Shown: positions 2 through 56,912 of the stretch, piece after piece
How the letters are laid out: the number at the start of each line of letters is the position of its first letter
Numbering within the stretch: the first letter of the stretch is position 1
Source: Yersinia canariae
GTDB lineage: Bacteria > Pseudomonadota > Gammaproteobacteria > Enterobacterales > Enterobacteriaceae
Assembly: GCF_009831415.1 (NCBI RefSeq)
Contig: NZ_CP043727.1
Location: forward strand, 434,001 to 498,000
DNA: 64,000 bases
Direction: 5' to 3'
The notes under the pieces: generated by a model
Databases searched by the model: none
What the model saw: only the letters and a program-made list of their open reading frames with translations
What the model was told of the DNA's origin: nothing
Made by a program: the position numbers and the translations under genes

Positions 2-439
2 ACGGTTCAATCCGCCAAGTCATTAAAGACCTGGCGGCAGGCATTAAATAAAGGGGATGAGCGTATACGGATTGTATTCGGCACCAAAGGTGGACGCCCG
101 AGGGATACCACGGTTGTAGATCGCGAAACGGTTATTCGTGCAGTCAATGAGGCGATAAAATATGTTGATAAACACAATGGGAAATTAATAGATAAGCCTA
201 ATTTGCACTCTGCTATTGATCGATATAGAAATACGCTCAAAGAGGCCGGGTTAACGGGGAAGGAGTCTCCGCATAGTCTGCGCTATGCCTATTCCAGAGA
301 AGCGACGGAATATCATATGAATAAAGGATTGAGCCGAAAAGAGGCGGAAGCAATGGTCTCAATGGATTTAGGGCATGGGGACGGGCGCGGGCATTATGTT
401 GCCAGAGTTTATAATAGAGTGGGTGATGATGAATTTTGA
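2..439 (+). CDS. Integrase-domain protein (Integrase_1 type), 5' part cut by window edge
   Basis: The reading frame is open from position 2, so the start lies outside the window. The C-terminal 145 residues carry tyrosine-recombinase-like signatures: an H-x-x-R motif in HSLRYAY, an LGHG motif, and a Tyr in the VARVY segment. This matches the 'integrase domain-containing protein' family (Integrase_1) that often sits in plasmid and ICE accessory regions, distinct from the element integrase at 33886. It probably acts on DNA, but its recombination activity and substrate are unknown. It is the first of a run of same-strand genes ending at 6009. Confidence 0.7.
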   Translation, partial: TVQSAKSLKTWRQALNKGDERIRIVFGTKGGRPRDTTVVDRETVIRAVNEAIKYVDKHNGKLIDKPNLHSAIDRYRNTLKEAGLTGKESPHSLRYAYSREATEYHMNKGLSRKEAEAMVSMDLGHGDGRGHYVARVYNRVGDDEF

Positions 440-812
440 TTGGCAGTGATAATTGGAGTCGGGTGTCCCTAGGATAGTTGTATTTCTTGCAGGAATGGAC
501 TTGTCGAATACGTTTGAATTGTGTACGATTTTATATGCTAACCCGTTGTCTCTGACAACAGCCAATGTCCTGGTGATTTGAGAAGGACGCCTTCGGGCAA
601 TCACAAGCCAAAGCGACCACAACCTGAGAGGACGCGCTTTAGAGCGGTAACCCCCCTGAACCTTTGAAAGCGGGGATCGCAGTTCACTGCGATGAAGGTG
701 CACTTATCCAACATGCCTTGATTGGCATCCTATCTGATTGACTCACCCTCAAGGGAACACGCTTCCCTCCTGGGGATAGGTGTTCCCTTATTTTTTGCGT
801 AAGGAAACATCT
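440..812 (+). other. Non-coding stretch before the first small gene
   Basis: No credible gene. It holds a short hairpin (GTTGTC / GACAAC, 545-559), a near-perfect 18-bp palindrome ATCGCAGTTCACTGCGAT (676-693), and at its right end the first three-arm element (751-815). The palindrome could be an operator or an RNA hairpin; no T run follows it. Confidence 0.5.
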
Positions 813-815
813 ATG
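751..815 (+). promoter_or_regulatory. Three-arm switch element 1
   Basis: Arm X AAGGGAACAC (751-760) is perfectly complementary to X' GTGTTCCCTT (780-789), followed by a run of T (788-796), like an intrinsic terminator. X' also pairs, with one wobble and one mismatch, with TAAGGAAACAT (800-810), which contains the AAGGA ribosome-binding site for the ATG at 813. The two pairings exclude each other. Function inferred, pairing seen directly. Confidence 0.6.
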
Positions 816-1100
816 GACTCACACAAAGACAAAGAACTGGCTTTTTTACCAGTATCTATCACGTTATCGGCCTGGGATCGCGCCGTAGACCGCTTCAGCA
901 TCGCTGAGTGGGAACGTCGGCAACTTGCGCTGATAAAAACAGCGCAGGATGCCTGGAGTAAGCGGGCAGTTCCTTCCGATACGGAAGTGACATTTTCGTT
1001 AACCCTGTTTGTTCGTCTGGGGGAGGAATCTGTCGAACTGACAGAGAGCTTCCTGGTGAAATATGACGATTACAAACTGATAATTACTTCAGCAAGCTAA
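813..1100 (+). CDS. Hypothetical 95-aa protein
   Basis: I do not recognise this protein. It is small and soluble-looking, with no signal peptide or membrane segment, and rich in charged residues (SIAEWERRQLALIK). The ATG at 813 is chosen over an upstream GTG at 780 because AAGGA precedes it and the three-arm element ends there. A strong hairpin (1111-1140) follows, so it is probably its own transcription unit or sits between attenuators. Placement among antirestriction genes suggests an early-establishment or anti-defence role, but that is context only. Confidence 0.65.
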   Translation: MDSHKDKELAFLPVSITLSAWDRAVDRFSIAEWERRQLALIKTAQDAWSKRAVPSDTEVTFSLTLFVRLGEESVELTESFLVKYDDYKLIITSAS

Positions 1101-1110
1101 TGGCTCTTGT

Positions 1111-1145
1111 CTCTGCCGGGAAGCTTTTCCCCTGGCAGAGATTTT
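1111..1145 (+). terminator. Hairpin terminator after the 95-aa gene
   Basis: CTCTGCC (1111-1117) pairs with GGCAGAG (1134-1140), extended inward by GGG/CCC with one bulge, and is followed by ATTTTC. Orientation fits the upstream gene. Confidence 0.6.
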
Positions 1146-1155
1146 CATTCTCACT

Positions 1156-1219
1156 TTTACGGGAGCCGATCCCCGTAAAGGGATGACTCCCTGTCATATT
1201 TGATACGGAGTGACTTATG
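1156..1219 (+). promoter_or_regulatory. Three-arm switch element 2
   Basis: TTTACGGG (1156-1163) pairs with CCCGTAAA (1172-1179); GGGAG (1161-1165) can pair with CTCCC (1187-1191), and the same CTCCC can pair with GGAGT (1208-1212), the ribosome-binding site for the ATG at 1217. This is a less regular member of the group, with a small ATGAC/GTCAT hairpin (1183-1197) in the middle. Confidence 0.45.
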
Positions 1220-1498
1220 ACAACCTTTGTTCTTGTCGCGGAATACCGGAATGCAACGGACCGACTGTTTACCCTGGCGAATGCCCATTTCTGCGCCTGT
1301 GTTGGGAATGATGAGCGGCATTCATGGCGGGGTAGTGCGCAACGTCATCTTGCAGAACTGGAAAATCTGAGCTGTAAGCGAGCGAGTGAGCGTGACCGGC
1401 GATGTTTTAGCCATGCCAGTCGTTTATTGCGTGAATGTATAGCGATGGTGAATGAGCACGGCGAGATGTTGTTACCCACTTCGGTGGTGAACCGTTAA
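1217..1498 (+). CDS. Hypothetical 93-aa protein, His/Cys/Arg-rich
   Basis: Unrecognised. The 93 residues include four Cys (CACVG, LSCKR, RCFSH, RECIA) and many Arg and His, which would be compatible with metal or nucleic-acid binding, but no family motif is clear. No signal peptide. GGAG (1208-1211) precedes the ATG. The 3' end of the gene contains a CCAC-TTCG-GTGG hairpin that recurs after radC. Confidence 0.6.
1476..1487 (+). repeat. TTCG-tetraloop hairpin, copy 1
   Basis: CCAC-TTCG-GTGG inside a longer repeated stretch CACTTCGGTGGTGAAC (from 1477). The same stretch recurs at 2077. TTCG (UUCG) loops make very stable RNA hairpins; here each copy sits at the 3' end of a gene, just ahead of the next three-arm element. 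Confidence 0.55.
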
Positions 1499-1536
1499 CT
1501 CGGAACATCATACATTTTACACGATCCATGATCTTC

Positions 1537-1601
1537 ACCTGGTCAGGCTGAGCACTGCCCGACTGGGGTGGTGTATGCCGATTTTTCGGGAGTACCCCAT
1601 G
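1537..1601 (+). promoter_or_regulatory. Three-arm switch element 3 (before radC)
   Basis: CACC...GTC-A-GGC (1537-1549) can fold on GCC-C-GAC...GGTG (1557-1570). The TGGGGT part (1564-1569) can instead pair with ACCCCA (1594-1599), which includes the first base of the radC start codon; a T run (1582-1586) lies between. Same layout as the other elements, with different arm sequences. Confidence 0.5.
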
Positions 1602-2063
1602 CAATATGAAACTCATGAGCAACATATCATTACCCAGGCTATCGGTTTGCTGGCGCGCGAGTTACAAGCCCGCACGGTAGTGATCACCGAACCAGATGCT
1701 GCACGCAACTATCTGCGCCTGCAATTGGAAAGACAGCAGCGTGAGGTGTTTATGGTGATGTACCTGGATACTCAGCACCGCCTGATCGCCAGTGAGACGG
1801 TATTTACCGGCACGTTGGCCTCGGTCACTGTTCATCCCAGGGAAATTGTCAAGCAGGCTCTGGCCTACAATGCTGGCGCGGTGATCCTGGCGCACAATCA
1901 TCCCTCGGGCATGGCTGAACCCAGCCAAGCGGATCGGCTTATAACTGGCACCTTGATCACCGCACTGGCATTAATTGACGTGCGGGTACTTGATCATCTG
2001 GTGATTGGCCATGGAGAAGTCGTCTCGTTTGCCGAGCGTGGCTGGCTCAACGCGCCCCACTGA
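1599..2063 (+). CDS. RadC/YeeS-family JAB-domain protein
   Basis: A 154-residue protein with the RadC/YeeS MPN (JAB) fold signature: the metal-binding HNHPSG motif at residues 99-104 followed by D112, and a conserved ETVFTGT segment near residue 66. Despite the name, the family's role in DNA repair is not established; YeeS-like members sit in prophages and islands beside cbtA toxins and antirestriction genes, as here. The ATG at 1599 is preferred over 1575 because CGGGAG lies just before it and because the upstream element ends at it. No membrane segment or signal peptide. Confidence 0.9.
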
Positions 2064-2075
2064 TTTGCATCTTCG

Positions 2076-2087
2076 CCACTTCGGTGG
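2076..2087 (+). repeat. TTCG-tetraloop hairpin, copy 2
   Basis: CCAC-TTCG-GTGG just after the radC stop codon, within the same 16-base stretch found at the end of the 93-aa gene (1477). Confidence 0.55.
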
Positions 2088-2119
2088 TGAACGGCACAGA
2101 ACCTTATTTTTACTCAATC

Positions 2120-2181
2120 CTTTGTGGGACGTGTCCCCCAAAGGGCAGGTTCCGCTCTTTTTTTGGAGAAAACCTGGAATG
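2120..2181 (+). promoter_or_regulatory. Three-arm switch element 4 (before ardB)
   Basis: CTTTGTGGGAC (2120-2130) pairs with GTCCCCCAAAG (2133-2143) with a single mismatch. Downstream CAGGTT (2146-2151) pairs with AACCTG (2171-2176), bracketing a T run (2158-2164) and the GGAGA ribosome-binding site of the ATG at 2179. Confidence 0.5.
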
Positions 2182-2637
2182 ACACAGATGACAAAAACAC
2201 CCGCCGTAACGGCGGAGAACACGGACTGGATGACCGGTTTCTACAAGCTGGTTTCGGTACTCGTCCAACAGGAGTTTTCCCAGGACAGTGCCACGCTCCA
2301 TGTGGTCAGCTTTACTCAGATGTGCTACGCCTATGCCCGTAGGTTCAGTCAGGACTATGGCGAGGACTATGGCAGTGATTTCTGGCACTGGTATACCCAA
2401 TCCGATGGCGGGTTCTTTGTCTGTCCGCAGACGGAGAAAACCTATCGGGTTGAGGTGCACTCAAACTATTACCGAGGTGAGATGAGTGCCCAGGCGTTGG
2501 GAATGACGGTGTCATTGTATGCCCTGTGCGTCCTGGCAGAATCGGGTCATGACTTTCTTATCGAGAGCTACCACCGACTGCGTGATTTTGCAGTGCGGCA
2601 TCCTGAATGGGCTGCTATTGGCGGGGCGATTGACTGA
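2179..2637 (+). CDS. ardB: ArdB/KlcA-family antirestriction protein
   Basis: A 152-residue protein matching the ArdB/KlcA family: the segments YAYARRFSQDY, FWHWYTQSDGGFF, YRGEMSAQALGM and YHRLRDFAVRHPE line up with KlcA. Family members carried by plasmids and islands inhibit type I restriction without imitating DNA and so protect incoming DNA in a new host. The ATG at 2179 is used because GGAGA stands before it; the longer frame from 2005 overlaps radC. It overlaps the next gene by one base (TGATG), implying translational coupling. Confidence 0.88.
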   Translation: MTQMTKTPAVTAENTDWMTGFYKLVSVLVQQEFSQDSATLHVVSFTQMCYAYARRFSQDYGEDYGSDFWHWYTQSDGGFFVCPQTEKTYRVEVHSNYYRGEMSAQALGMTVSLYALCVLAESGHDFLIESYHRLRDFAVRHPEWAAIGGAID

Positions 2638-2879
2638 TGGCCGCTATCTTAACCGTGGCTGAAGCCATTCAGAAACTTCAACGACATGCGGATCAGGACG
2701 AAGTGATCCTGCTGGATCTGTGGTACGCCGAAGATGTTCAGTCTCAGGACGAGACGGCGACCCCTGGCGAAGCCATAGCAGCCCTTGAACAGGCTGTTCA
2801 TGATTTCGATGCCAACACAGGGATCTGCTGGTTAACGCTTGAGGCCGCATTGGAGGTTGTTCGAACCCAGGGCCGATAA
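2637..2879 (+). CDS. Hypothetical 80-aa acidic protein coupled to ardB
   Basis: Unrecognised. The start overlaps the ardB stop (TGATG), so it is translated with ardB. The 80 residues are acidic and hydrophilic, with a central VILLDLWYAEDVQ segment that faintly recalls DUF1380-type plasmid proteins, not enough for a call. A small acidic partner of an antirestriction gene may be an accessory anti-defence protein; this is inference from position and composition only. Confidence 0.65.
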   Translation: MAAILTVAEAIQKLQRHADQDEVILLDLWYAEDVQSQDETATPGEAIAALEQAVHDFDANTGICWLTLEAALEVVRTQGR

Positions 2880-2896
2880 ATCGTTGTTTTTATTTT

Positions 2897-2966
2897 ACTT
2901 ACCAATAGGGACTGACTTCCCTATCGGGGGTAAGTCCCATTTTTAATTATAAAGGAACTTACCATG
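2897..2966 (+). promoter_or_regulatory. Three-arm switch element 5
   Basis: ACTTACC occurs at 2897-2903 and again at 2957-2963, directly before the ATG at 2964; between them GGTAAGT (2929-2935) is complementary to both. The upstream pairing is reinforced by ATAGGGA/TCCCTAT (2905-2911/2918-2924). The downstream pairing (GGTAAGTCCC with GGAACTTACC) covers the ribosome-binding site, with a T run at 2940-2944 between. One of the clearest cases. Confidence 0.7.
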
Positions 2967-3305
2967 ATGACGACAAATCAGGCCAACGGCCCCTTTTCTC
3001 TCGATGACTTGTGCGAACTGGCAAACCTTGAAGGCGATTTGCGGGTGATTGCCGCGCATGAGCAATTGGATATTGGCACACAACCGGATGAAGACGGCTT
3101 TACCGATAATGTCTGGGAGATTGCCAATCTGGCACAAACGTTTGCTAGAAAATGTGGGTTGGATCCACTCCGTTATACCCATCCGTCCTGCAAAGTTTTG
3201 TTCGATGATGTCATTGCTCTGGGCAGAATGGTTTGCCCTGGAGCCTGGGACCACTTCTTTGAAGCGGGGCTAGAGGAATCAAGAGCAATTTTGGAGGGAT
3301 GGTAA
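2964..3305 (+). CDS. Hypothetical 113-aa protein
   Basis: Unrecognised. 113 residues, acidic, predicted soluble, with helices rich in Leu/Ala (LDDLCELANLEGDLRVIAAHEQ). AAGGAA precedes the ATG and is part of the downstream arm of the preceding switch element. The stop codon overlaps the start of the next gene (TAATG), so the two are translationally coupled. Confidence 0.65.
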   Translation: MMTTNQANGPFSLDDLCELANLEGDLRVIAAHEQLDIGTQPDEDGFTDNVWEIANLAQTFARKCGLDPLRYTHPSCKVLFDDVIALGRMVCPGAWDHFFEAGLEESRAILEGW

Positions 3306-3799
3306 TGCGTCGATGTTACTTCTTCACCCCTATCCAGACGGTTCCCCATGAGGCCTGGAGTGAGCTGTGCCGTGCAATAACCCGAGTGCATCATCGGGTT
3401 CGCAACGAGTCGGTTTTTTGCTGGCTGGGTAAACCCCTGACTGTCTATGACCACAGTGGAACGCAACCACTGAGGTATGACGACAGTATGGTGGGGCTGG
3501 GCGTTATCTCCTTTAACGGTGATTTTGGCGCAGGCCTGTCAGGTGACCCTCTTTGCCTGGTTCGGTTGTGTTCTTCCGAACGGCGGCAAAGTCAGTGCAA
3601 TACCTTCCATCACCCTTACGATTTTCTGGTGATGGCGGTACTGCTGCTGGTCAGCCATTACTGCCCGACGTGCTACGCCCTTCATTCGACGGTCGGACGT
3701 ACCGAGTGGCAACAGGTGACTGACTGGTTAAACACCCACTTACATCTGGCAGTGACGTTACCTCCAGGACTTCAACACACTGACGCTATTATCGGTTAA
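3305..3799 (+). CDS. Hypothetical 164-aa protein
   Basis: Unrecognised. An ATG at 3299 is also in frame, but GGAGGG (3293-3298) touches it, while the ATG at 3305 has proper spacing and overlaps the preceding stop. It contains several Cys and His (HYCPTCYALHS near residue 120) and a short hydrophobic segment (FLVMAVLLLVSHYC) that could be a buried strand/helix or a single membrane segment. No known domain could be assigned. Confidence 0.65.
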   Translation: MRRCYFFTPIQTVPHEAWSELCRAITRVHHRVRNESVFCWLGKPLTVYDHSGTQPLRYDDSMVGLGVISFNGDFGAGLSGDPLCLVRLCSSERRQSQCNTFHHPYDFLVMAVLLLVSHYCPTCYALHSTVGRTEWQQVTDWLNTHLHLAVTLPPGLQHTDAIIG

Positions 3800-3820
3800 T
3801 ACGATTTTAGCACTGACAAC

Positions 3821-3884
3821 CCTTGCGGGGATTTATTCCCGCAAGGGGGTAAGTCCCCGTTTTTTATGGAGAGGACTTACCATG
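3821..3884 (+). promoter_or_regulatory. Three-arm switch element 6 (before ardC)
   Basis: CCTTGCGGG (3821-3829) pairs perfectly with CCCGCAAGG (3838-3846), and GGGGATTTA (3827-3835) nearly pairs with TAAGTCCCC (3850-3858). GGTAAGTCC (3848-3856) is also perfectly complementary to GGACTTACC (3873-3881), which abuts the ardC ATG; a T run (3860-3865) lies between. The downstream arm pair resembles that of element 5. Confidence 0.7.
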
Positions 3885-4880
3885 ACAACGAAACAAACCA
3901 GGAAAAAGGCAGCATCACGTCACCAGGATAAAGTGGACCTGTTCCAGGTCGTGACGGATAAAATCGTCGCGGCGCTGGAAAAGGGCACGTCTCCGTGGCG
4001 CAAACCGTGGCGTACTGTTGCCGGTGGCCGTTCGGTCAGCATGAGCGGGTTACCGGCCAACGCCATTACTGGGCGGGCCTACAGCGGTATCAATGTGTTG
4101 CTGCTGTGGATTGATGCAGCGGAGAAGGGGTTTACCTCACACCGCTGGCTGACGTTCAAACAGGCACTGGATGTGGGCGGTAACGTGCGTAAAGGCGAAA
4201 AATCCACACTGGTGACCCTGTTCAAGCCGTTTGAGAAAAAAGAGACGGACGAGCAAGGCAAGCCTCTTTTTGATGAACAGGGTAACGCCGTGGTCTCCAG
4301 GCGAAATTTCATGACCAGTTTTCACCTGTTCAACGTTGAGCAGTGTGATAATTTACCCGAGAAACTGCTGACGCCGGTGAGTGTGGCCGGTGACGCTGAG
4401 GAAACACCCGAGCGACATGATATTGAGCGTATCCAGCGGGCAGAACAGGTGGTTGTCTGCAGTGGCGTACCGGTGGTACACCGGCATCAGGATCAGGCGT
4501 TCTACAGCCCTGGAGCCGACCGTATCACGATGCCGGAAGCGGTGCAGTTCCATCGCCCGGCAGATTACTACAGTACGCTGTTGCATGAGCTGGTGCATTC
4601 TACCGGCCATGTCTCCCGATTGGCGCGAGAAGGCATCACGTCTTCTTCACGCCGGTTTGGGGACCCGGTGTACGCGTTCGAGGAACTTGTCGCGGAAATC
4701 GGTTCGGCATTCCTGTGCGCCGAAGTGGGTATCCAGGGTGATGTTCAGCATGAGAGCTATATTGCCTCATGGCTGAAGGCACTGAAAGAAGACAAAAAGG
4801 CCATCTTCCAGGCAAGCCGTTTTGCCCGTGAAGCCTTTGAATACCTTATTTTACGTGAACAAGCCCTGGCTGCCGCCTGA
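3882..4880 (+). CDS. ardC: ArdC-like antirestriction protein (ssDNA-binding domain plus zincin)
   Basis: A 332-residue protein of the ArdC family. The N-terminal part (residues 15-160; PWRKPW, GRAYSGIN, VRKGEKST) matches the ArdC N-terminal ssDNA-binding domain. The C-terminal part is a zincin-like metalloprotease domain with HELVHSTGH at 235-243 and glutamates in EELVAEIG near 267-272. Family members travel with conjugative elements, and some protect incoming DNA from restriction. GAGAGGACT precedes the ATG within the downstream arm of element 6. The CbtA-like gene follows 22 bp later, probably in one transcript. Confidence 0.9.
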   Translation: MTTKQTRKKAASRHQDKVDLFQVVTDKIVAALEKGTSPWRKPWRTVAGGRSVSMSGLPANAITGRAYSGINVLLLWIDAAEKGFTSHRWLTFKQALDVGGNVRKGEKSTLVTLFKPFEKKETDEQGKPLFDEQGNAVVSRRNFMTSFHLFNVEQCDNLPEKLLTPVSVAGDAEETPERHDIERIQRAEQVVVCSGVPVVHRHQDQAFYSPGADRITMPEAVQFHRPADYYSTLLHELVHSTGHVSRLAREGITSSSRRFGDPVYAFEELVAEIGSAFLCAEVGIQGDVQHESYIASWLKALKEDKKAIFQASRFAREAFEYLILREQALAAA

Positions 4881-4902
4881 GCCGCTATTGGAGGAAGACA
4901 CG

Positions 4903-5223
4903 ATGGACACCACTGCAATTCGCGAATACCAAAAGATAGCGGCGTTCCTTCTGGAGAAACACTTTGGGCTGACGTTGAACGATACCAACTTTCATGATGA
5001 CGATGTCGTTATGGGATTGGTTGGGCTCAACATTCCTGTTTATGAAGCGATCAACCACTTGGTAGAAAAATACCAATTGGACCGGATAGACCAGAACGAC
5101 TGGTCTCCCCGAAGTCCGCTGTTAACCCCAAGCAACTTTATGGTTGCCGTATTGGAGCTTGTACCAGAGAAAGTCCAGCTTGTCCGTATCGATGAAACGG
5201 ATGAGAAACTGATGCAGCACTGA
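4903..5223 (+). CDS. CbtA/YeeV-family toxin-like protein, no antitoxin seen
   Basis: A 106-residue protein whose core (FLLEKHFGLTLNDTNF, followed by EAINHLVEKYQLDRIDQ) lines up closely with E. coli YeeV/CbtA, a toxin that blocks MreB and FtsZ assembly and is countered by CbeA/YeeU. The usual CbeA gene just upstream is absent; ardC sits there instead. An upstream ATG at 4822 lies inside ardC and lacks a ribosome-binding site; GGAGGAAG precedes the ATG at 4903. It may be an orphan toxin, a toxin with an unrelated antidote, or a repurposed factor acting on the recipient cell. Confidence 0.78.
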   Translation: MDTTAIREYQKIAAFLLEKHFGLTLNDTNFHDDDVVMGLVGLNIPVYEAINHLVEKYQLDRIDQNDWSPRSPLLTPSNFMVAVLELVPEKVQLVRIDETDEKLMQH

Positions 5224-5262
5224 CTTTTCACCCAAGGTTAGCCAATAACCTGCCACTCCCCA

Positions 5263-5319
5263 GGGGAAACATTTCCCTTGGGGGATGTTTCCCCTTTTAT
5301 TTCAGGAAACATCCCTATG
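5263..5319 (+). promoter_or_regulatory. Three-arm switch element 7 (before the methylase)
   Basis: GGGGAAACAT (5263-5272) is perfectly complementary to ATGTTTCCCC (5285-5294), followed by TTTT. GGGATGTTTCC (5282-5292) is perfectly complementary to GGAAACATCCC (5305-5315), which carries the ribosome-binding site and ends one base before the ATG at 5317. Two perfect, mutually exclusive stems of 10 and 11 bp: the best example of the group. Confidence 0.75.
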
Positions 5320-6009
5320 GCAAATCCCAATCCGCATGTTGCGGAATTTATTTCATTATTTAACCAGACGGCCCGTTATCATCATCGTTATGAGGTTTTC
5401 CGGGATTTTGTACAGATGGCTGCGTGCGCAGTCCACAATCAGGTCGCATTTTCGCGGCAGCTTGAGGACGAGTACCTTAGCCTGGTCAAACAGTATGAAC
5501 GTGAAGACGTCAATCGCATGGGAAAGTTGTTGGGTATTCTCCGGTGTGGCCTGGGCCTGCAGCAGCCGATTTACGATGATGTTCTCGGCAGGATATTCAT
5601 GAACCTTGAACTGGGTGATGCAAGACGTGGGCAATTTTTCACGCCGTTTGATATTTCCCGGATGATGGCAAAGATGGTGGTTCATGACCTGGACAGTGAG
5701 TTGAAGCGAAAGCCGTTCCTGACCGTGGGTGAACCAGCCTGTGGTGCCGGTGGGATGATTATCGCGGTGGCCGAGCAGTTTAGCCAGGCGGGATACCCTC
5801 CACAGCGATGGATGTTTGCAAGCTGTGTTGATATTGATCCGGTCGCAACTGCGATGTGCTATCTGCAGTTGTCTTTGTTGCAGATCCCGGCAGAAATTAT
5901 CACCGCCAACTCGCTAACGATGCAATGCTGTCGCGTTATGCGAACACCTGCTTACTATCTTCATGGCTGGTCGGTACGCTTGGATAGCAACGAAAAATCA
6001 GTAGCATGA
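5317..6009 (+). CDS. N6-adenine DNA methylase-like protein (motif IV not seen)
   Basis: A 230-residue protein resembling the plasmid/ICE N-6 DNA methylases. It shows the GQFFTP segment (105-110) typical of type I HsdM-like enzymes and the SAM-binding motif EPACGAGGM (139-147). The catalytic NPP(Y/F) motif expected downstream is not found: the sequence ends in YLHGWSVRLDSNEKSVA. It may be naturally short, C-terminally altered, or act without methylation, for example as a decoy. No restriction partner lies nearby. The ATG at 5317 sits at the end of element 7; the frame from 5278 is unlikely. Confidence 0.75.
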   Translation: MANPNPHVAEFISLFNQTARYHHRYEVFRDFVQMAACAVHNQVAFSRQLEDEYLSLVKQYEREDVNRMGKLLGILRCGLGLQQPIYDDVLGRIFMNLELGDARRGQFFTPFDISRMMAKMVVHDLDSELKRKPFLTVGEPACGAGGMIIAVAEQFSQAGYPPQRWMFASCVDIDPVATAMCYLQLSLLQIPAEIITANSLTMQCCRVMRTPAYYLHGWSVRLDSNEKSVA

Positions 6010-6021
6010 TCTTAAGTTCAA

Positions 6022-6046
6022 CGCCCCGGTATCGGGGCGTTTTTTT
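6022..6046 (+). terminator. Intrinsic terminator closing the anti-defence cluster
   Basis: CGCCCCG (6022-6028) and CGGGGCG (6033-6039) with loop GTAT, followed by seven T. It ends the run of + strand genes and separates it from the metal-resistance cargo. Confidence 0.85.
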
Positions 6047-6248
6047 AAAGATTACTCTTCGGTTTCATCGAGGATATGTAGAGTGTGAGAAAGGAGGCAA
6101 CAGGGCTGCGGTTTAATACTGCCGTGGGGCGTTGATCTTACCGCTGAATATCAATACGGCGTTGTCTGTGCGCTTACGACAAATCGGCCAGAATTGCAGA
6201 TAACAGCTATACTTTCTAGCGAACTAATTAACTTGAAAGGGTAGTAAA

Positions 6249-15526: not shown

Positions 15527-17319
15527 TCATCAACCCGAACTTCACGAAACATTCCCATTTCCATGTGATAAAGAAGATGGCAGTGATAAGCCCAACGACC
15601 CAGTGCGTCAGCCGTGACCCTGTAGCTGCGTTTAGTGCCTGGTGGCATATCAATCGTGTGTTTACGGACTAAAAAATTACCGTTTTCATCTTCAAGATCG
15701 CTCCACATGCCGTGCAGATGGATTGGGTGAGTCATCATGGTGTCGTTGACAAGGACGATCCTGATGCGTTCGCCGTATTTAAGCATTAGAGGCCCTGCAT
15801 CGGAGAACTTGATGCCGTTAAATGACCAGGCAAATTTTTCCATATGGCCTGTCAGATGAAGTTCTATGGTTCGTGTGGGCTCCCGGCCATCGGGATCTTC
15901 AAACGTACTTTTAAGATCGGAATAGGTGAGCACTTTACGGCCATTGTTTCTGAGCCCGAGACCCGGATCGTTCAGCTTGGGAGACACACTCATAGCCTGC
16001 ATATCGACGAGAGGATTATTATCCTCAGACGCCGGGTGGCTCTGCATGCCTGGCATACCCGCCATCTGGGAATGGTCCATTCCGGCCATGTTACTGTGGT
16101 CCATCGGTGACGACGATGACTCTGGCTGCGCCATATCAGCACCATCCATGCTCATCATCTGATCACCCCCCGCCATTCCTGCCATCTGGCTATGATCCAT
16201 CCCTCCCATCCCCATGTCATCCATGGTTAAAACGGGCCGGGGATCCAGAGGGGGTATGCGTGCACTGAGCCCTTCACGTATAGCGAGTGTTCCACGGGCG
16301 TAACCCGTGCGATCCATGGACTGCGCAAAAATGGTGCAGGCATCTTCGGTTGGCTCGACGATGACATCGTACGTTTCAGCAACAGCAATTCTGAACTCGT
16401 CAACGCTGACGGGTTCTACATACTGGCCGTCCGCAGCGACAATGGTCATCTTCAGGCCCGGAATGCGCACGTCAAAATAGGTCATTGCGGAGCCATTAAT
16501 AAATCTGAGGCGAATTTTCTCTCCTCGCGTGAACAGCCCCGTCCAGTTATTCAGGGGGGTTTGCCCATTCATCAGATAGGTGTAGGTATACCCACTGACG
16601 TCAGCCAGGTCCGTTGGGTTCATTTTCATCTGCGCCCACATTTTGCGATCGGCAATCGTGGCAGAGAGCCCTTTGGTGTTGACATCCTTGAAAAAGGAAC
16701 CCACCGTGGGTTTATTGAAGTTGTAATAATCAGACTGCTTTTTGAGCTTGCTCAGCAGGCGTTGAGGGTTTTCATCCGTCCAGTCGGTCAGCATGACAAC
16801 ATGCTCACGGTCATACTGAAACGGTTCTGGCTCACGGGCATCAATGATGATGGCACCATAAACGCCTTCCTGTTCTTGCAAACCTGAATGACTGTGGTAC
16901 CAGTAAGTGCCGTTTTGATTGACCTGGAAGGTATAGACATAGGTCTCGTCTGGCTCGATACCCGCAAAACTGAGTCCTGGTACGCCATCCATGTTGGCGG
17001 GCAGAATAATGCCGTGCCAGTGAATGGACGTGTGCTCATCCAGTTTGTTCTTGACCCTGAGAGTGACTTTGTCACCTTCCCTCCACCGCAATGTTGGCCC
17101 GGGCAGGCCACCATTAATGGTTTTGGCCTGCCGGTTGCTTCCCGTGATGTTGACCGGGGTTTCACTGATCGTCAGATCAAAACGGGTGCCCCGTAGTGTC
17201 TGTGGCAGAGGAAGGTTTAGGTTTGATCGTGCATTAAAACTCCACACGCCGAGGCTGCTGGTAACTCCGGTGACAGTGAGTCCTTTGATGAAAGTGCGTC
17301 GTGAAGTTTTTAACTGCAT
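15523..17319 (-). CDS. pcoA: Multicopper oxidase PcoA
   Basis: A 598-residue periplasmic multicopper oxidase, first gene of the pcoABCDRS unit. It has a Tat signal ([13 protein letters not shown]), copper motifs HWHG (near 100), WYHSHSG (near 140), HPIHLHG and [13 protein letters not shown] at the C-terminus, and a long Met-rich region ([14 protein letters not shown] and repeats, about residues 368-430). It oxidises Cu(I) and possibly loads other Pco proteins. GAGAAAG precedes the ATG. Two CATTAC boxes lie upstream. Confidence 0.95.
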
Positions 17320-17416
17320 TAACTTTCTCCTTTTGAGAGTGATACGAGCAATTCGTGAGCTGCCCTCTGTATTTTGAAAACTGAAAATGAAGCTAACATA
17401 AAAAAAACAACATAAT

Positions 17417-17472
17417 CATTACAATCGCGTAATGTTGAAGGGTTTAATTATCTTCATTACATTTACGTCATT
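17417..17472 (-). promoter_or_regulatory. Two tandem PcoR-type boxes between pcoA and the divergent pcoE-like gene
   Basis: CATTACAATCGCGTAATG (17417-17434) and CATTACATTTACGTCATT (17455-17472) share the pattern CATTACA-T---CGT-AT-, 38 bp apart. The first is a CATTAC/GTAATG inverted repeat. Placement between two divergent copper genes suits a shared PcoR operator. The link to PcoR is inference. Confidence 0.6.
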
Positions 17473-32415: not shown

Positions 32416-33867
32416 ATGTTGAAATCACTTCTTAAACTTCTACCTACGTCGATCGGAAAAAGGGAGGAGAAAGTTTCTATCTCTGCCGCTAGTGTTCCTG
32501 ATGGCTATCATGAACCTGAACAAGCTGCCAAGCTTTTGGCTTCGCCACAACGCCGTCAATGGTTGCAAACGTTGTGGGATTACTCGTCACTGCCAAAAGA
32601 CCTGTATCTGCATTATTACCTACGACCGCTTGAGCACTGCGTCACTCTGATGCAGCAGTTTCCTGCCACGGAGAGTGGGCATCATGCTTATCTGGGGGGG
32701 ATGGTGGATCATCTGCTTGAAACTGTGGCGTATGCTGCCCGTCTATCAAAAAACCACCTGCTGCCGATCGGCGCACAACCGGAAGATCAGGCCTCACAAA
32801 GCGCAGCTTGGAATGCGGTGATTGTTTACGCAGCTATGCTGCAATCGCTTGACAGGCTTTGTCAGATTGAAGTTGAGTTGGAAAGTGGGCAACGCTGGAT
32901 GCCGCTCAATGCTATGCCGAGTGAACCCTACCGTTTTCGTTTCAAGCCTGTTGTTGATGCGACACAGGCCCAGAGCCTGGGCGCGATGTTGGCCTGGAAA
33001 GTCATTCCTGATGAAGCCTTGCTCTGGTTGAGTACCTGGCCAGAGGTTCTGAAAACGTTGTCGCTGTATCTGACGGGTTTTCGAAACGAATCAGGAATAA
33101 TCAATACAATTGCTTCCGAAGCTATCTCTACATCAATAGGAAAAGAAAAAGAGGTACCTGAAATTGCCACTGCTATTTCGGCATCAATCCCACCGGTTGT
33201 ACTTGAAGCGATAATGCCATTAGAGAATTACTCTCTTCATTCAGCATCTTCCCCGGTGCTGATTTCTTCTTCCCTGCCCGGTGAGAGTTCTATATCTGAA
33301 GGGTTTTCTCTCTCTCTCGGCAGCGCGGTGCCTGATATTGAAGCTGTCGAGTCAGCTTTTCCTGAAGAAGATACTACGGGGGATTTGTTGGCTGTCATGG
33401 GGTTTTCTGCACCCATTAATTTGACGCAGGATGTGCAGGTAATATCGATGCAAACGGAGACTGTATTAAAGGAAGACATCGATTCTTCAGATTCAATGGG
33501 GATTGGAGAACGTTTTTGGCAATGGTTGAGTGAAGGATGTTGCTCAGGGACTTTTGCAGTAAATACTGCCGATGCAAGGATATATATTATTGCAGGTTAT
33601 GTCTTTATTCGTACTCCTAACATCTTTCACCAGTTTTTATCAGAAAGTTGCGAAAACTCCGAAGCTAAAACTAGCTTACAAAGTGCATTCGAGCGATTAG
33701 GGAGACATAGACAGGATAAAGGCGTGATGTATACCTGCCATGTCTATCAAGATAAGGCCAAGGAAGGGCGATTCCAGAAAATGACCGGTTATCTTATCGT
33801 TGCCAAGAAACTGTATAAAGACCATAGCATTCCAGGGGATAGCCCATTGGTGATGATAAAACCTTAG
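32416..33867 (+). CDS. TraI_2/MobH relaxase-like protein with altered HD site
   Basis: A 483-residue protein with the layout of the ICE TraI relaxases (PFGI-1 class): N-terminal LLPTSIGK...PQRRQWLQTLWDYSSLP, then H89-H90 and GGMVDHLLE with H99, then LLPIGAQPEDQA, and a C-terminal TraI_2_C-type domain (FWQWLSEGCCSGTF...). In family members recalled by me the next segment reads ALLHDIGK; here residues 141-147 are MLQSLDR, so the HD pair is lost. The central part (about 245-350) is low-complexity and Ser/Glu/Pro-rich. It may be a non-nicking relative. It lies 19 bp before the integrase. Confidence 0.65.
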   Translation: MLKSLLKLLPTSIGKREEKVSISAASVPDGYHEPEQAAKLLASPQRRQWLQTLWDYSSLPKDLYLHYYLRPLEHCVTLMQQFPATESGHHAYLGGMVDHLLETVAYAARLSKNHLLPIGAQPEDQASQSAAWNAVIVYAAMLQSLDRLCQIEVELESGQRWMPLNAMPSEPYRFRFKPVVDATQAQSLGAMLAWKVIPDEALLWLSTWPEVLKTLSLYLTGFRNESGIINTIASEAISTSIGKEKEVPEIATAISASIPPVVLEAIMPLENYSLHSASSPVLISSSLPGESSISEGFSLSLGSAVPDIEAVESAFPEEDTTGDLLAVMGFSAPINLTQDVQVISMQTETVLKEDIDSSDSMGIGERFWQWLSEGCCSGTFAVNTADARIYIIAGYVFIRTPNIFHQFLSESCENSEAKTSLQSAFERLGRHRQDKGVMYTCHVYQDKAKEGRFQKMTGYLIVAKKLYKDHSIPGDSPLVMIKP

Positions 33868-33885: not shown

Positions 33886-34869
33886 ATGATGAATGTGACG
33901 TTTGAACAGTTGATGGAGCAGTATTTTTTCAGTAATTCCATTCGGCCAGCGACGGAGTGGAGTTATCGGAAAGTTGTTCGAACTTTTCAGAAGTACGCAC
34001 AGCAATTGCCTAGTGATGTCAACAATACATTGGTACTTGAATGGCGTAGGCATGTTCTTAAAGAACTGAAACTGGAGGCTTGTACCTGGAACAATAAAGT
34101 CACACATATGCGGGCATTATTTAATTTTGGCATGAAGAAGGGGATATTACCCCATAAGGAAAATCCCTTTAATAAGGCGGTTGTTCGGGTTGGGAAAAAG
34201 AAGAAAAAAACGCTTTCAAAGGGGCAGGTGAATACAGTGTACCGATTGATGGATCAACACTATCAACAGGAGCGACTTTTTGCGCAATCTTATGCCATGA
34301 GCGCACGGGCCAATGCCTGTCATCCAGCCTGGTTTTGGCTGGCTGTACTGGATACGCTAAGCCATACCGGAATGCGTCAAAACCAACTTCTGCATGTACG
34401 GTTGTGTGATGTCAATCTGGAGGAGCGCTGGATCGATGTGATTTCTGAGGGTTCAAAAAATCATCGTGAATTTAAGGTTCCGATAACGTCTATTTTATAT
34501 CCGCGATTAGAAGTCATTCTGGAGCGTTCATTAGCGGCAGGCGCGGAATTAAGCGATCAGCTTTTCAATGTGAACCGTTTTGACCTGAGACGGAAAGCAC
34601 GGTTTGTACAAGGAAGTCATGACGTGAATATGGGGATTTACCCTATAAGGGCCTTCTTTCGGCGTATTTCCAAGGAGTGCCGGTTTGCTGTCAGCCCCCA
34701 TCGTTTTCGGCATACGGTAGCGACCAATCTGATGAAGTCCCCCGATCGCAATATTCAGGCCGTCAAACGTCTGTTGGGACACTCCAGCTTACGGTCTACG
34801 TTGGAGTACATTGATGAGGATATTGATGCTTTGCGTGAACTTCTGGAGCAGGAGTGGGGGAATGGGTGA
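33886..34869 (+). CDS. int: Tyrosine-family integrase of the element
   Basis: A 327-residue tyrosine recombinase. Catalytic residues are in place: R164 in SHTGMRQNQLL, K191, H272-R275 in HRFRH, H299 in LGHSS and Y308 in STLEYIDE; an N-terminal SAM-like DNA-binding part covers about residues 1-105. It would cut and rejoin DNA at the tRNA-Phe 3' end. Start ATG 33886 with GGGAG upstream. Together with the tRNA 240 bp downstream it defines the element's right end. Confidence 0.92.
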   Translation: MMNVTFEQLMEQYFFSNSIRPATEWSYRKVVRTFQKYAQQLPSDVNNTLVLEWRRHVLKELKLEACTWNNKVTHMRALFNFGMKKGILPHKENPFNKAVVRVGKKKKKTLSKGQVNTVYRLMDQHYQQERLFAQSYAMSARANACHPAWFWLAVLDTLSHTGMRQNQLLHVRLCDVNLEERWIDVISEGSKNHREFKVPITSILYPRLEVILERSLAAGAELSDQLFNVNRFDLRRKARFVQGSHDVNMGIYPIRAFFRRISKECRFAVSPHRFRHTVATNLMKSPDRNIQAVKRLLGHSSLRSTLEYIDEDIDALRELLEQEWGNG

Positions 34870-35111: not shown

Positions 35112-35160
35112 TGGTGCCCGGACTCGGAATCGAACCAAGGACACGGGGATTTTCAATCCC
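35112..35160. other. Likely attachment site (tRNA-Phe 3' half)
   Basis: The 3' half of the tRNA is the usual crossover segment for such integrases. The matching copy at the other end of the element is not in the window, so the exact core cannot be set. Confidence 0.5.
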
Positions 35161-35187
35161 CTGCTCTACCGACTGAGCTATCCGGGC
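35112..35187 (-). tRNA. pheU: tRNA-Phe (GAA)
   Basis: The minus strand reads GCCCGGATAGCTCAGTCGGT... and ends ...GAGTCCGGGCACCA, the enterobacterial tRNA-Phe including an encoded CCA. The anticodon GAA lies at 35152-35154. It is intact; the foreign element begins at its 3' end. Confidence 0.96.
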
Positions 35188-56862: not shown

Positions 56863-56912
56863 GGCTGTCTGGGACGACCCGGCACGCATCTGTTTTTTCG
56901 GGGACGACCCCG
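56863..56912 (+). promoter_or_regulatory. Guanidine-II riboswitch (mini-ykkC) before gdx
   Basis: Two short hairpins with ACGA loops, GGG-ACGA-CCC (56871-56880) and CGGGG-ACGA-CCCCG (56899-56912), the hallmark of mini-ykkC. The second hairpin lies a few bases before GAGGGG, the ribosome-binding site of gdx. Guanidine binding should free translation. Confidence 0.88.

Follow-up and report, generated by a model that had tools for sequence, protein, structure and literature searches.

Mutually exclusive RNA folds before the antirestriction genes of a putative SPI-7-type element, and a possible role for STAXI RNA in unlocking them

Transcription attenuators of the trp kind are built from four arms that form overlapping alternative hairpins, together with a T run. 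In conjugative elements, the closest described relative is a 'strong translational attenuator' reported in a review upstream of bet in SXT (PMC4542580). Antitermination in such elements is described for canT of Tn916 and conAn of pLS20 (PMC11658703), and the put RNA of phage HK022, about 70 nt long with two stem-loops, has been seen bound to RNA polymerase (PMC9378689). The STAXI motif (RF01728) was described in 2010 as being of unknown function, with action as single-stranded DNA (ssDNA) or as RNA proposed (PMC2864571). Here we analyse a 64,000-nt stretch of the Yersinia canariae chromosome (the window; contig NZ_CP043727.1, positions 434,001 to 498,000), in which a STAXI RNA precedes a cluster of antirestriction and establishment-type genes whose leaders can adopt competing folds. 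We propose, with a probability of roughly 50%, that these leaders form a double lock by transcription termination and hiding of the ribosome-binding site, with STAXI as a cis-acting antitermination RNA.

Compared with trp attenuators, the T run of these leaders follows the helix of arms 2 and 3, the fourth arm is the ribosome site and no leader peptide was seen. With the bet attenuator, known through the review, the cover of the ribosome site is shared, and switching arms stand before bet in an SXT/R391-type integrative and conjugative element (ICE). The published attenuator concerns one gene and is described as translational, whereas the leaders here precede many gene families, mostly carry a terminator and have STAXI on their 5' side. 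The first-pass annotation of this stretch had known of no description of the three-arm form, which the published bet attenuator corrects in part. With put, STAXI shares the layout of a structured RNA downstream of a promoter and terminators before early genes; put, however, is two polymerase-bound stem-loops, while STAXI consists of tandem pseudoknots whose role would follow by analogy. canT and conAn are Gram-positive systems described without an array of double leaders, and the likeness lies in antitermination within a conjugative element. The cluster's STAXI copy, which the first-pass annotation had overlooked, is a member of RF01728; promoter placement and a link to leaders are absent from the consulted text of that motif's description (PMC2864571). 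Neither a STAXI-leader nor a STAXI-antitermination link appeared in titles and abstracts of open-licence PMC papers, subscription literature being outside this scope, and a whole-word search of a 2024 paper on plasmid leading regions (PMC11541004) for ICE, terminator and attenuator terms gave no passage.

The hairpins had been annotated as three-arm structures at seven gene starts. This was confirmed in part, and four arms fit better than three: 1:2, 2:3 followed by the T run (terminator) and 3:4 (cover of the ribosome site). Folded whole, the leaders of genes 813, 1599, 2179, 2964, 3882 and 5317 (Table 1) form the first hairpin and a stem over the ribosome site, and the same six leaders cut before that site fold into a GC hairpin followed by the T run. 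To score in our leader test, a sequence needs a T run whose first base lies 9-48 nt upstream of the start codon, with a hairpin that ends close by; the test then counts the middle-arm bases that pair upstream in the cut leader and with the ribosome-site region in the whole leader (switching bases). For each of the six, none of 200 dinucleotide shuffles equalled switching-base count and hairpin energy jointly. The leader of gene 1217 has the arms, with 9 switching bases in a test that omits the T run, and fails the T-run test; at genes 2637, 3299 and 4903 the structure was absent in tests with and without the T run. Hence a GC hairpin with a U tract, as in intrinsic-terminator attenuators, was found in 6 of the 7 window leaders, along with a mutually exclusive alternative fold. 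Within the cluster 7 of the 10 called open reading frames (ORFs) scored, one of which (called at 4837) is a chance match in coding DNA; the test falsely flagged 3 of 248 ORFs on the chromosome and, elsewhere in the window, 2 of 58. The radC RNA motif (RF01754) was ruled out as the identity of the leaders, with no Rfam match at E<=5 in 400-6200; in 8 further loci Rfam matched STAXI, EFASI and tRNA only.

Arm sequences vary from gene to gene by eye, apart from a recurring CCC-GGG hairpin 1:2, and yet they co-vary. We exchanged arms between gene families among 121 leaders, selected because their terminators are stable. For the pair of arms 2 and 3 the median was -21.3, against -11.1 after swapping, and 90/121 own pairs equalled or beat 95% of swaps; arm 3 with the ribosome site gave -13.2 against -8.0 (54/121), and arm 1 with arm 2 equalled or beat 95% of swaps in 48/121. 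We relied on these swaps and on a 17-leader alignment because no consensus fold emerged when all 121 leaders were aligned with MAFFT and an ArdC alignment fell out of register between subfamilies. In the 17 leaders, in register for the terminator helix only, 87.8% of cells were paired and the covariation score was 0.338 versus 0.207 in shuffles (0/500 as high on either), while cells with two-sided changes exceeded all 500 shuffles; for further pair types, 29/500 shuffles were as high.

The strand that folds could also be determined. Among 601 ORFs, folding of the plus strand with G·U pairs gave 119 matches, as against 70 for the minus strand and 59 for Watson-Crick pairs only. In the terminator helix of 57 leaders chosen without G·U we counted 21 G·U versus 6 A·C, in arm 1:2 12 to 7 and in STAXI helices 275 to 117. 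The ribosome-site helix alone shows no G·U excess (8 G·U, 16 C·A, 0 A·C), and its C·A cells may represent the A of GGAG opposite a C needed by the terminator. Plus-strand and G·U excess argue that the mRNA sense folds. Of the two roles offered by the first-pass annotation, that of RNA attenuators of antirestriction and establishment genes therefore agrees with the sequence evidence (terminator, ribosome-site cover, co-variation and RNA-sense G·U excess). Promoters on entering ssDNA would need the template strand to fold, which the strand counts do not support.

We then surveyed 68 stretches (67 loci and the window; 1,273 called ORFs), selected from STAXI and ArdC matches and hence not random. 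Downstream of STAXI on the same strand, leaders were matched at 66/274 ORFs within 0-2 kb, 34/197 within 2-5 kb and 19/130 within 5-8 kb, that is 119/601 up to 8 kb, versus 5/497 on the other strand or upstream. Beyond 8 kb the count was 4/114, and in stretches without a listed STAXI 1/61. Some of these matches are of another type: a few chance ones in coding DNA and five similar ones before an integrase-like gene (L112, L124, L143, L155 and L162), probably the EFASI-side gene. A terminator stood directly before the start codon of 128/484 genes downstream of STAXI versus 4/307, and sense-strand terminator-like hairpins occurred at 0.714/kb downstream of STAXI, 0.209/kb on the opposite strand and 0.271/kb in the rest. 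ArdC genes scored as leader-bearing in 26/38 cases with a listed STAXI upstream and in 2/27 without; of these two, E. coli LF82 does have STAXI by Rfam, and in the other case a contig end is 0.75 kb away. One locus (L165) has a degenerate leader with 4 switching bases and no STAXI. Rfam found no STAXI in five scanned loci without a listed copy.

A covariance model (R1) was built from 17 leaders, none of them from the window. Scoring 150 of 858 candidate places in the 4.7-Mb window genome, it found four leaders at E<=0.01, those of genes 813, 2179, 3882 and 5317, and nothing outside this cluster; the leaders of 1599 and 2964 were missed. In 384 genomes of the window's family R1 produced 93 matches in 45 genomes, those to its 17 seeds being by construction and all E-values rough. 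STAXI at E<=0.001 was present in 40/45 R1-positive genomes versus 84/392 overall. For 73 of the 93 matches a listed STAXI is found no more than 9 kb upstream, and 7 more stand beside STAXI by Rfam. The remaining 13 comprise 4 of an IncHI2 gene type, 6 of an SXT type (two of them, in G322, assigned by spacing) and 3 that are unexplained or unchecked (G279, G320, G410). Around G410:C1:545921 and G279:C1:2649 the surrounding stretch holds no STAXI; the latter match is near a contig start, before a gene like the methylase-like one. R1 matches in G004, G007 and G023 are weak.

Promoters were scored with weights and a start distance that we took as customary values. In 47/94 copies, the 60 nt before STAXI contain a promoter-like site that scores above the 95th percentile of shuffles; in 39 of these the -10 box ends 13-14 nt before STAXI, which would place the first base of STAXI near +7. 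As with put, a structured RNA thus stands close behind a predicted promoter (39/94 copies), and the terminator-like hairpins enriched downstream would share its transcript. Before leaders, sites above that percentile were found in 0/113 cases within 60 nt, 0/93 within 160 nt and 1/91 at 60-160 nt. Since leaders show no excess of promoters of their own, they are most likely transcribed from upstream, through successive terminators. The window's STAXI barely beats shuffles in a pseudoknot-free fold (z -1.49), and its structure therefore rests on the Rfam model.

Leaders also occur where Rfam finds no STAXI. Among 345 order-level genomes R1 matched in 29 (23 outside the window's family, 8 in one family), while Rfam STAXI was present in 7, all in the window's family. 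We searched strictly for the STAXI pseudoknot topology; in 477 kb of chromosomal sequence, both strands included, 3 units turned up by chance. Of 15 loci searched, 8 had units, and these were among 9 Pasteurellaceae loci; in 6 of the 8, units lie 87-98 nt before the first detected leader. In a set of eight named Pasteurellaceae loci, which overlaps the former (L233 is L250 and L237 is L247), 6 have units; all 12 of these are on the leader strand. Leaders there number 19/43 downstream of a unit and 3/133 otherwise, and those 3 are in the two loci without units. No units were found in L239, L241, L243, the SXT-type and IncHI2 stretches, L251 and L252, which is weak evidence because the strict search finds only 58/96 STAXI copies. 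It is conceivable, if at rather less than even odds, that STAXI and the divergent Pasteurellaceae pseudoknot array make up a new RNA class that acts in cis to bring about processive antitermination in conjugative elements of Gram-negative bacteria, and are the single key to leader arrays that silence establishment and anti-restriction genes by termination and then by ribosome-site hiding.

Two further elements carry arms of a weaker kind: L212, which we take from its gene content to be an SXT/R391-type ICE, and L211, for which IncHI2 typing was seen in one of 1,397 plasmid records holding most of the stretch. Their arms precede genes of recombination or DUF3150/VWA operons. The T-run test flags 0/16 starts in L212 and 5/23 in L211; when the T run is not required, 5 or more switching bases were found at 9/16 and 5/21 starts versus 17/188 chromosomal genes, and at 5/16 and 3/21 starts with, in addition, no more than 5/100 shuffles as high. 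Two of the nine in L212 (22222, 26148) are not leader-like by eye. The arms before bet have 6 switching bases, with 5/100 shuffles as high, and no T run. The evidence is thus weaker than in STAXI clusters, and the absence of T runs from most of the arms favours translation control in these elements. Rfam detects no STAXI in either stretch. The 5' regions of the leader operons (L212 13230-13400 and L211 13990-14240, chosen by eye) fold better than shuffles (z -3.62 and -3.55) and are possibly other 5' elements with a STAXI-like role.

How would such a cluster work? In the 121 leaders the nascent form with the terminator has a median energy of -20.7 against -17.2 without arm 3, and the terminator is the more stable in 114/121, partly by selection of stable terminators. 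The full leader reaches -29.7, against -22.7 with the terminator kept. The ribosome site is less than 0.3 unpaired in 96/121 leaders versus 39/110 controls, that is, it is paired in the default fold, as in a translational attenuator. From these energies we conclude that termination would come first and hiding of the ribosome site afterwards. The cluster would be one transcript of the ICE, begun from the promoter-like site at 501-529 and with STAXI RNA at its 5' end. While a leader is being synthesized, arm 3 would pair with arm 2 and transcription would end at the T run; should polymerase escape, arm 1 would pair with arm 2 and arm 3 would cover the ribosome site. Two locks imply that ordinary polymerase, or stray transcription while the element is integrated, would yield almost no protein. 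STAXI might act in cis on polymerase, like put, so that terminators are passed; terminator hairpins that stay folded would leave ribosome sites open, and all establishment genes would be turned on together from one promoter, presumably at entry. The ON state would require polymerase to be modified such that it disregards 2:3 while this helix stays folded, or else another factor; we favour the first, with STAXI as the modifier. The lock itself is well supported by the sequence comparisons, and the role of STAXI we infer. If true, this would explain how large conjugative elements silence many establishment, anti-restriction and recombination genes while resident and then raise them together, would give the orphan RNA STAXI a testable role, and would make the published attenuator of SXT bet one case of a leader class that occurs in SPI-7-type and Pasteurellaceae elements and, in weaker form, in SXT/R391-type ICEs and IncHI2 plasmids.

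Several observations weigh against this proposal. With the terminator kept, only 29/121 ribosome sites are more than 0.7 unpaired, and the median of 0.52 is no better than in ordinary genes (0.49). Because the full leader hides its ribosome site at equilibrium, the ON state has to be argued on kinetic grounds. The promoter of the window is itself weak (score 8.3, below the shuffled 95th percentile of 9.21), although its position before STAXI agrees with other copies. Of the ArdC genes with STAXI, 12/38 fail the leader test, in several cases, judged by eye, because the T run is short or absent, and the 4 pairs with two-sided changes in the 17-leader alignment are matched by 129/500 shuffles. 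Leader-like arms without a recognizable STAXI in the SXT/R391-type ICE and the IncHI2 plasmid mean that STAXI is not a general key. STAXI and EFASI may also work as small RNAs.

It is possible, though we think it doubtful, that the leaders are translational attenuators only, in which arm 3 covers the ribosome site, 1:2 and 2:3 tune this, T runs are secondary and STAXI is linked for another reason such as mRNA stability or a small RNA. The SXT-type arms, mostly without T runs, and the equilibrium fold would suit this; terminator-like hairpins 3.4 times denser downstream of STAXI than on the opposite strand would not, nor would the fact that arm 2 with arm 3 is the helix most often beating swaps. 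An improbable alternative treats every leader as a separate switch that responds to a protein, RNA or ligand acting in trans, with STAXI or EFASI perhaps as that RNA or as a protein sponge. Both RNAs were detected by real-time polymerase chain reaction on complementary DNA from vesicles of one E. coli strain (PMC12370729), and the CCC-GGG hairpin recurs in the leaders. Against it, arm sequences vary between genes (by eye, no motif search having been run), and both leader folds look OFF, so a ligand choosing one would not turn the leader ON. We also considered a CsrA-type sponge and discarded it on inspection by eye.

The hairpins might instead be Frpo-like promoters on entering ssDNA. The establishment-type genes point towards TraI, the entering strand could be the template if the origin of transfer (oriT) lies by traI, and the reverse complement of the STAXI TTCG loops would give stable DNA loops. 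Strand-specific folding and the G·U versus A·C counts in terminator helix, arm 1:2 and STAXI led us to reject template-strand promoters; moreover, T runs are on the sense strand and promoter-like sites stand before STAXI, which leaves this reading very improbable. We give still less credit to ordinary terminators of upstream genes, with a promoter for each gene and a merely fortuitous match to ribosome sites. Intergenic terminators are indeed common; the near absence of promoter-like sites before leaders, pairing with the own ribosome site that beats swaps and the rarity of leaders elsewhere all speak against this reading.

Table 1. Features of the leader cluster and its surroundings, in window coordinates; genes are named by their first position, and gene names outside the cluster were read in the sequence
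Feature	Position	Strand	Remarks
Sigma70-like promoter	501..529	+	TTGTCG 501-506, 17 nt, TACGAT 524-529
STAXI RNA (RF01728)	544..703	+	Rfam cmscan 107.8 bits, gathering 40.5; 5' end of presumed transcript
Leader of gene 813	741..815	+	terminator hairpin and T run / ribosome-site stem
Gene 813	813..1100	+	95 amino acids; no Pfam/NCBIfam match
Leader of gene 1217	1160..1219	+	switching arms, T run absent
Gene 1217	1217..1498	+	93 amino acids; no Pfam/NCBIfam-based function
Leader of radC-like gene	1536..1601	+	
RadC-like JAB protein	1599..2063	+	PF04002 4.3e-45
Leader of antirestriction gene	2113..2181	+	
Antirestriction protein	2179..2637	+	PF03230
Gene 2637	2637-2879		after antirestriction gene; without leader
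Leader of gene 2964	2897..2966	+	
Gene 2964	2964..3305	+	no function assigned
Gene 3299	3299-3799		after gene 2964; without leader
Leader of ardC-like gene	3815..3884	+	
Its arm 1	3820-3831		
Its arm 2	3836-3847		
Its arm 3	3848-3860		
Its T run	3860-3865		
Its ribosome-site arm	3873-3881		
ArdC-like protein (ArdcN and zincin)	3882..4880	+	PF08401, PF18818
CbtA-like protein	4903..5223	+	PF06755; without own leader
Leader of N6-methylase-like gene	5253..5319	+	best covariance-model match in genome, E 2.6e-5
N6 DNA methylase-like protein	5317..6009	+	PF02384 4.1e-9
Plain terminator-like hairpin and T run	6021..6046	+	after cluster; read in sequence
TraI-like gene	32416-33867		name by reading
Integrase	33886-34869		name by reading
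tRNA	35115-35187		tRNA-Phe by reading

The window is a chromosomal part of its genome, and within its first 35 kb lies one end of what, from its sequence, looks like an SPI-7-type ICE. There the leader cluster (0.5-6 kb) is followed by metal-resistance-like cargo, the TraI-like gene, the integrase and the tRNA. E. coli LF82 has the same order of integrase-domain gene, antirestriction, ArdC, TraI, integrase and tRNA-Phe; its locus adjoins integrating-conjugative-element proteins. In a related E. coli element, there are proteins whose names include SPI-7-type. Immediately upstream of the window Rfam places a second STAXI (L022 16617-16800) and then an EFASI RNA (17307-17461). In LF82, the integrase-domain gene behind EFASI (L163 14062) has a strong hairpin and T run right before its start. 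The cargo of the window (6249-31266) encodes, by reading, a multicopper-oxidase-like protein, sensor kinases, a response regulator and efflux-like proteins. Past the tRNA, a Guanidine-II riboswitch (RF01068, 38.3 bits) lies at 56866-56912.

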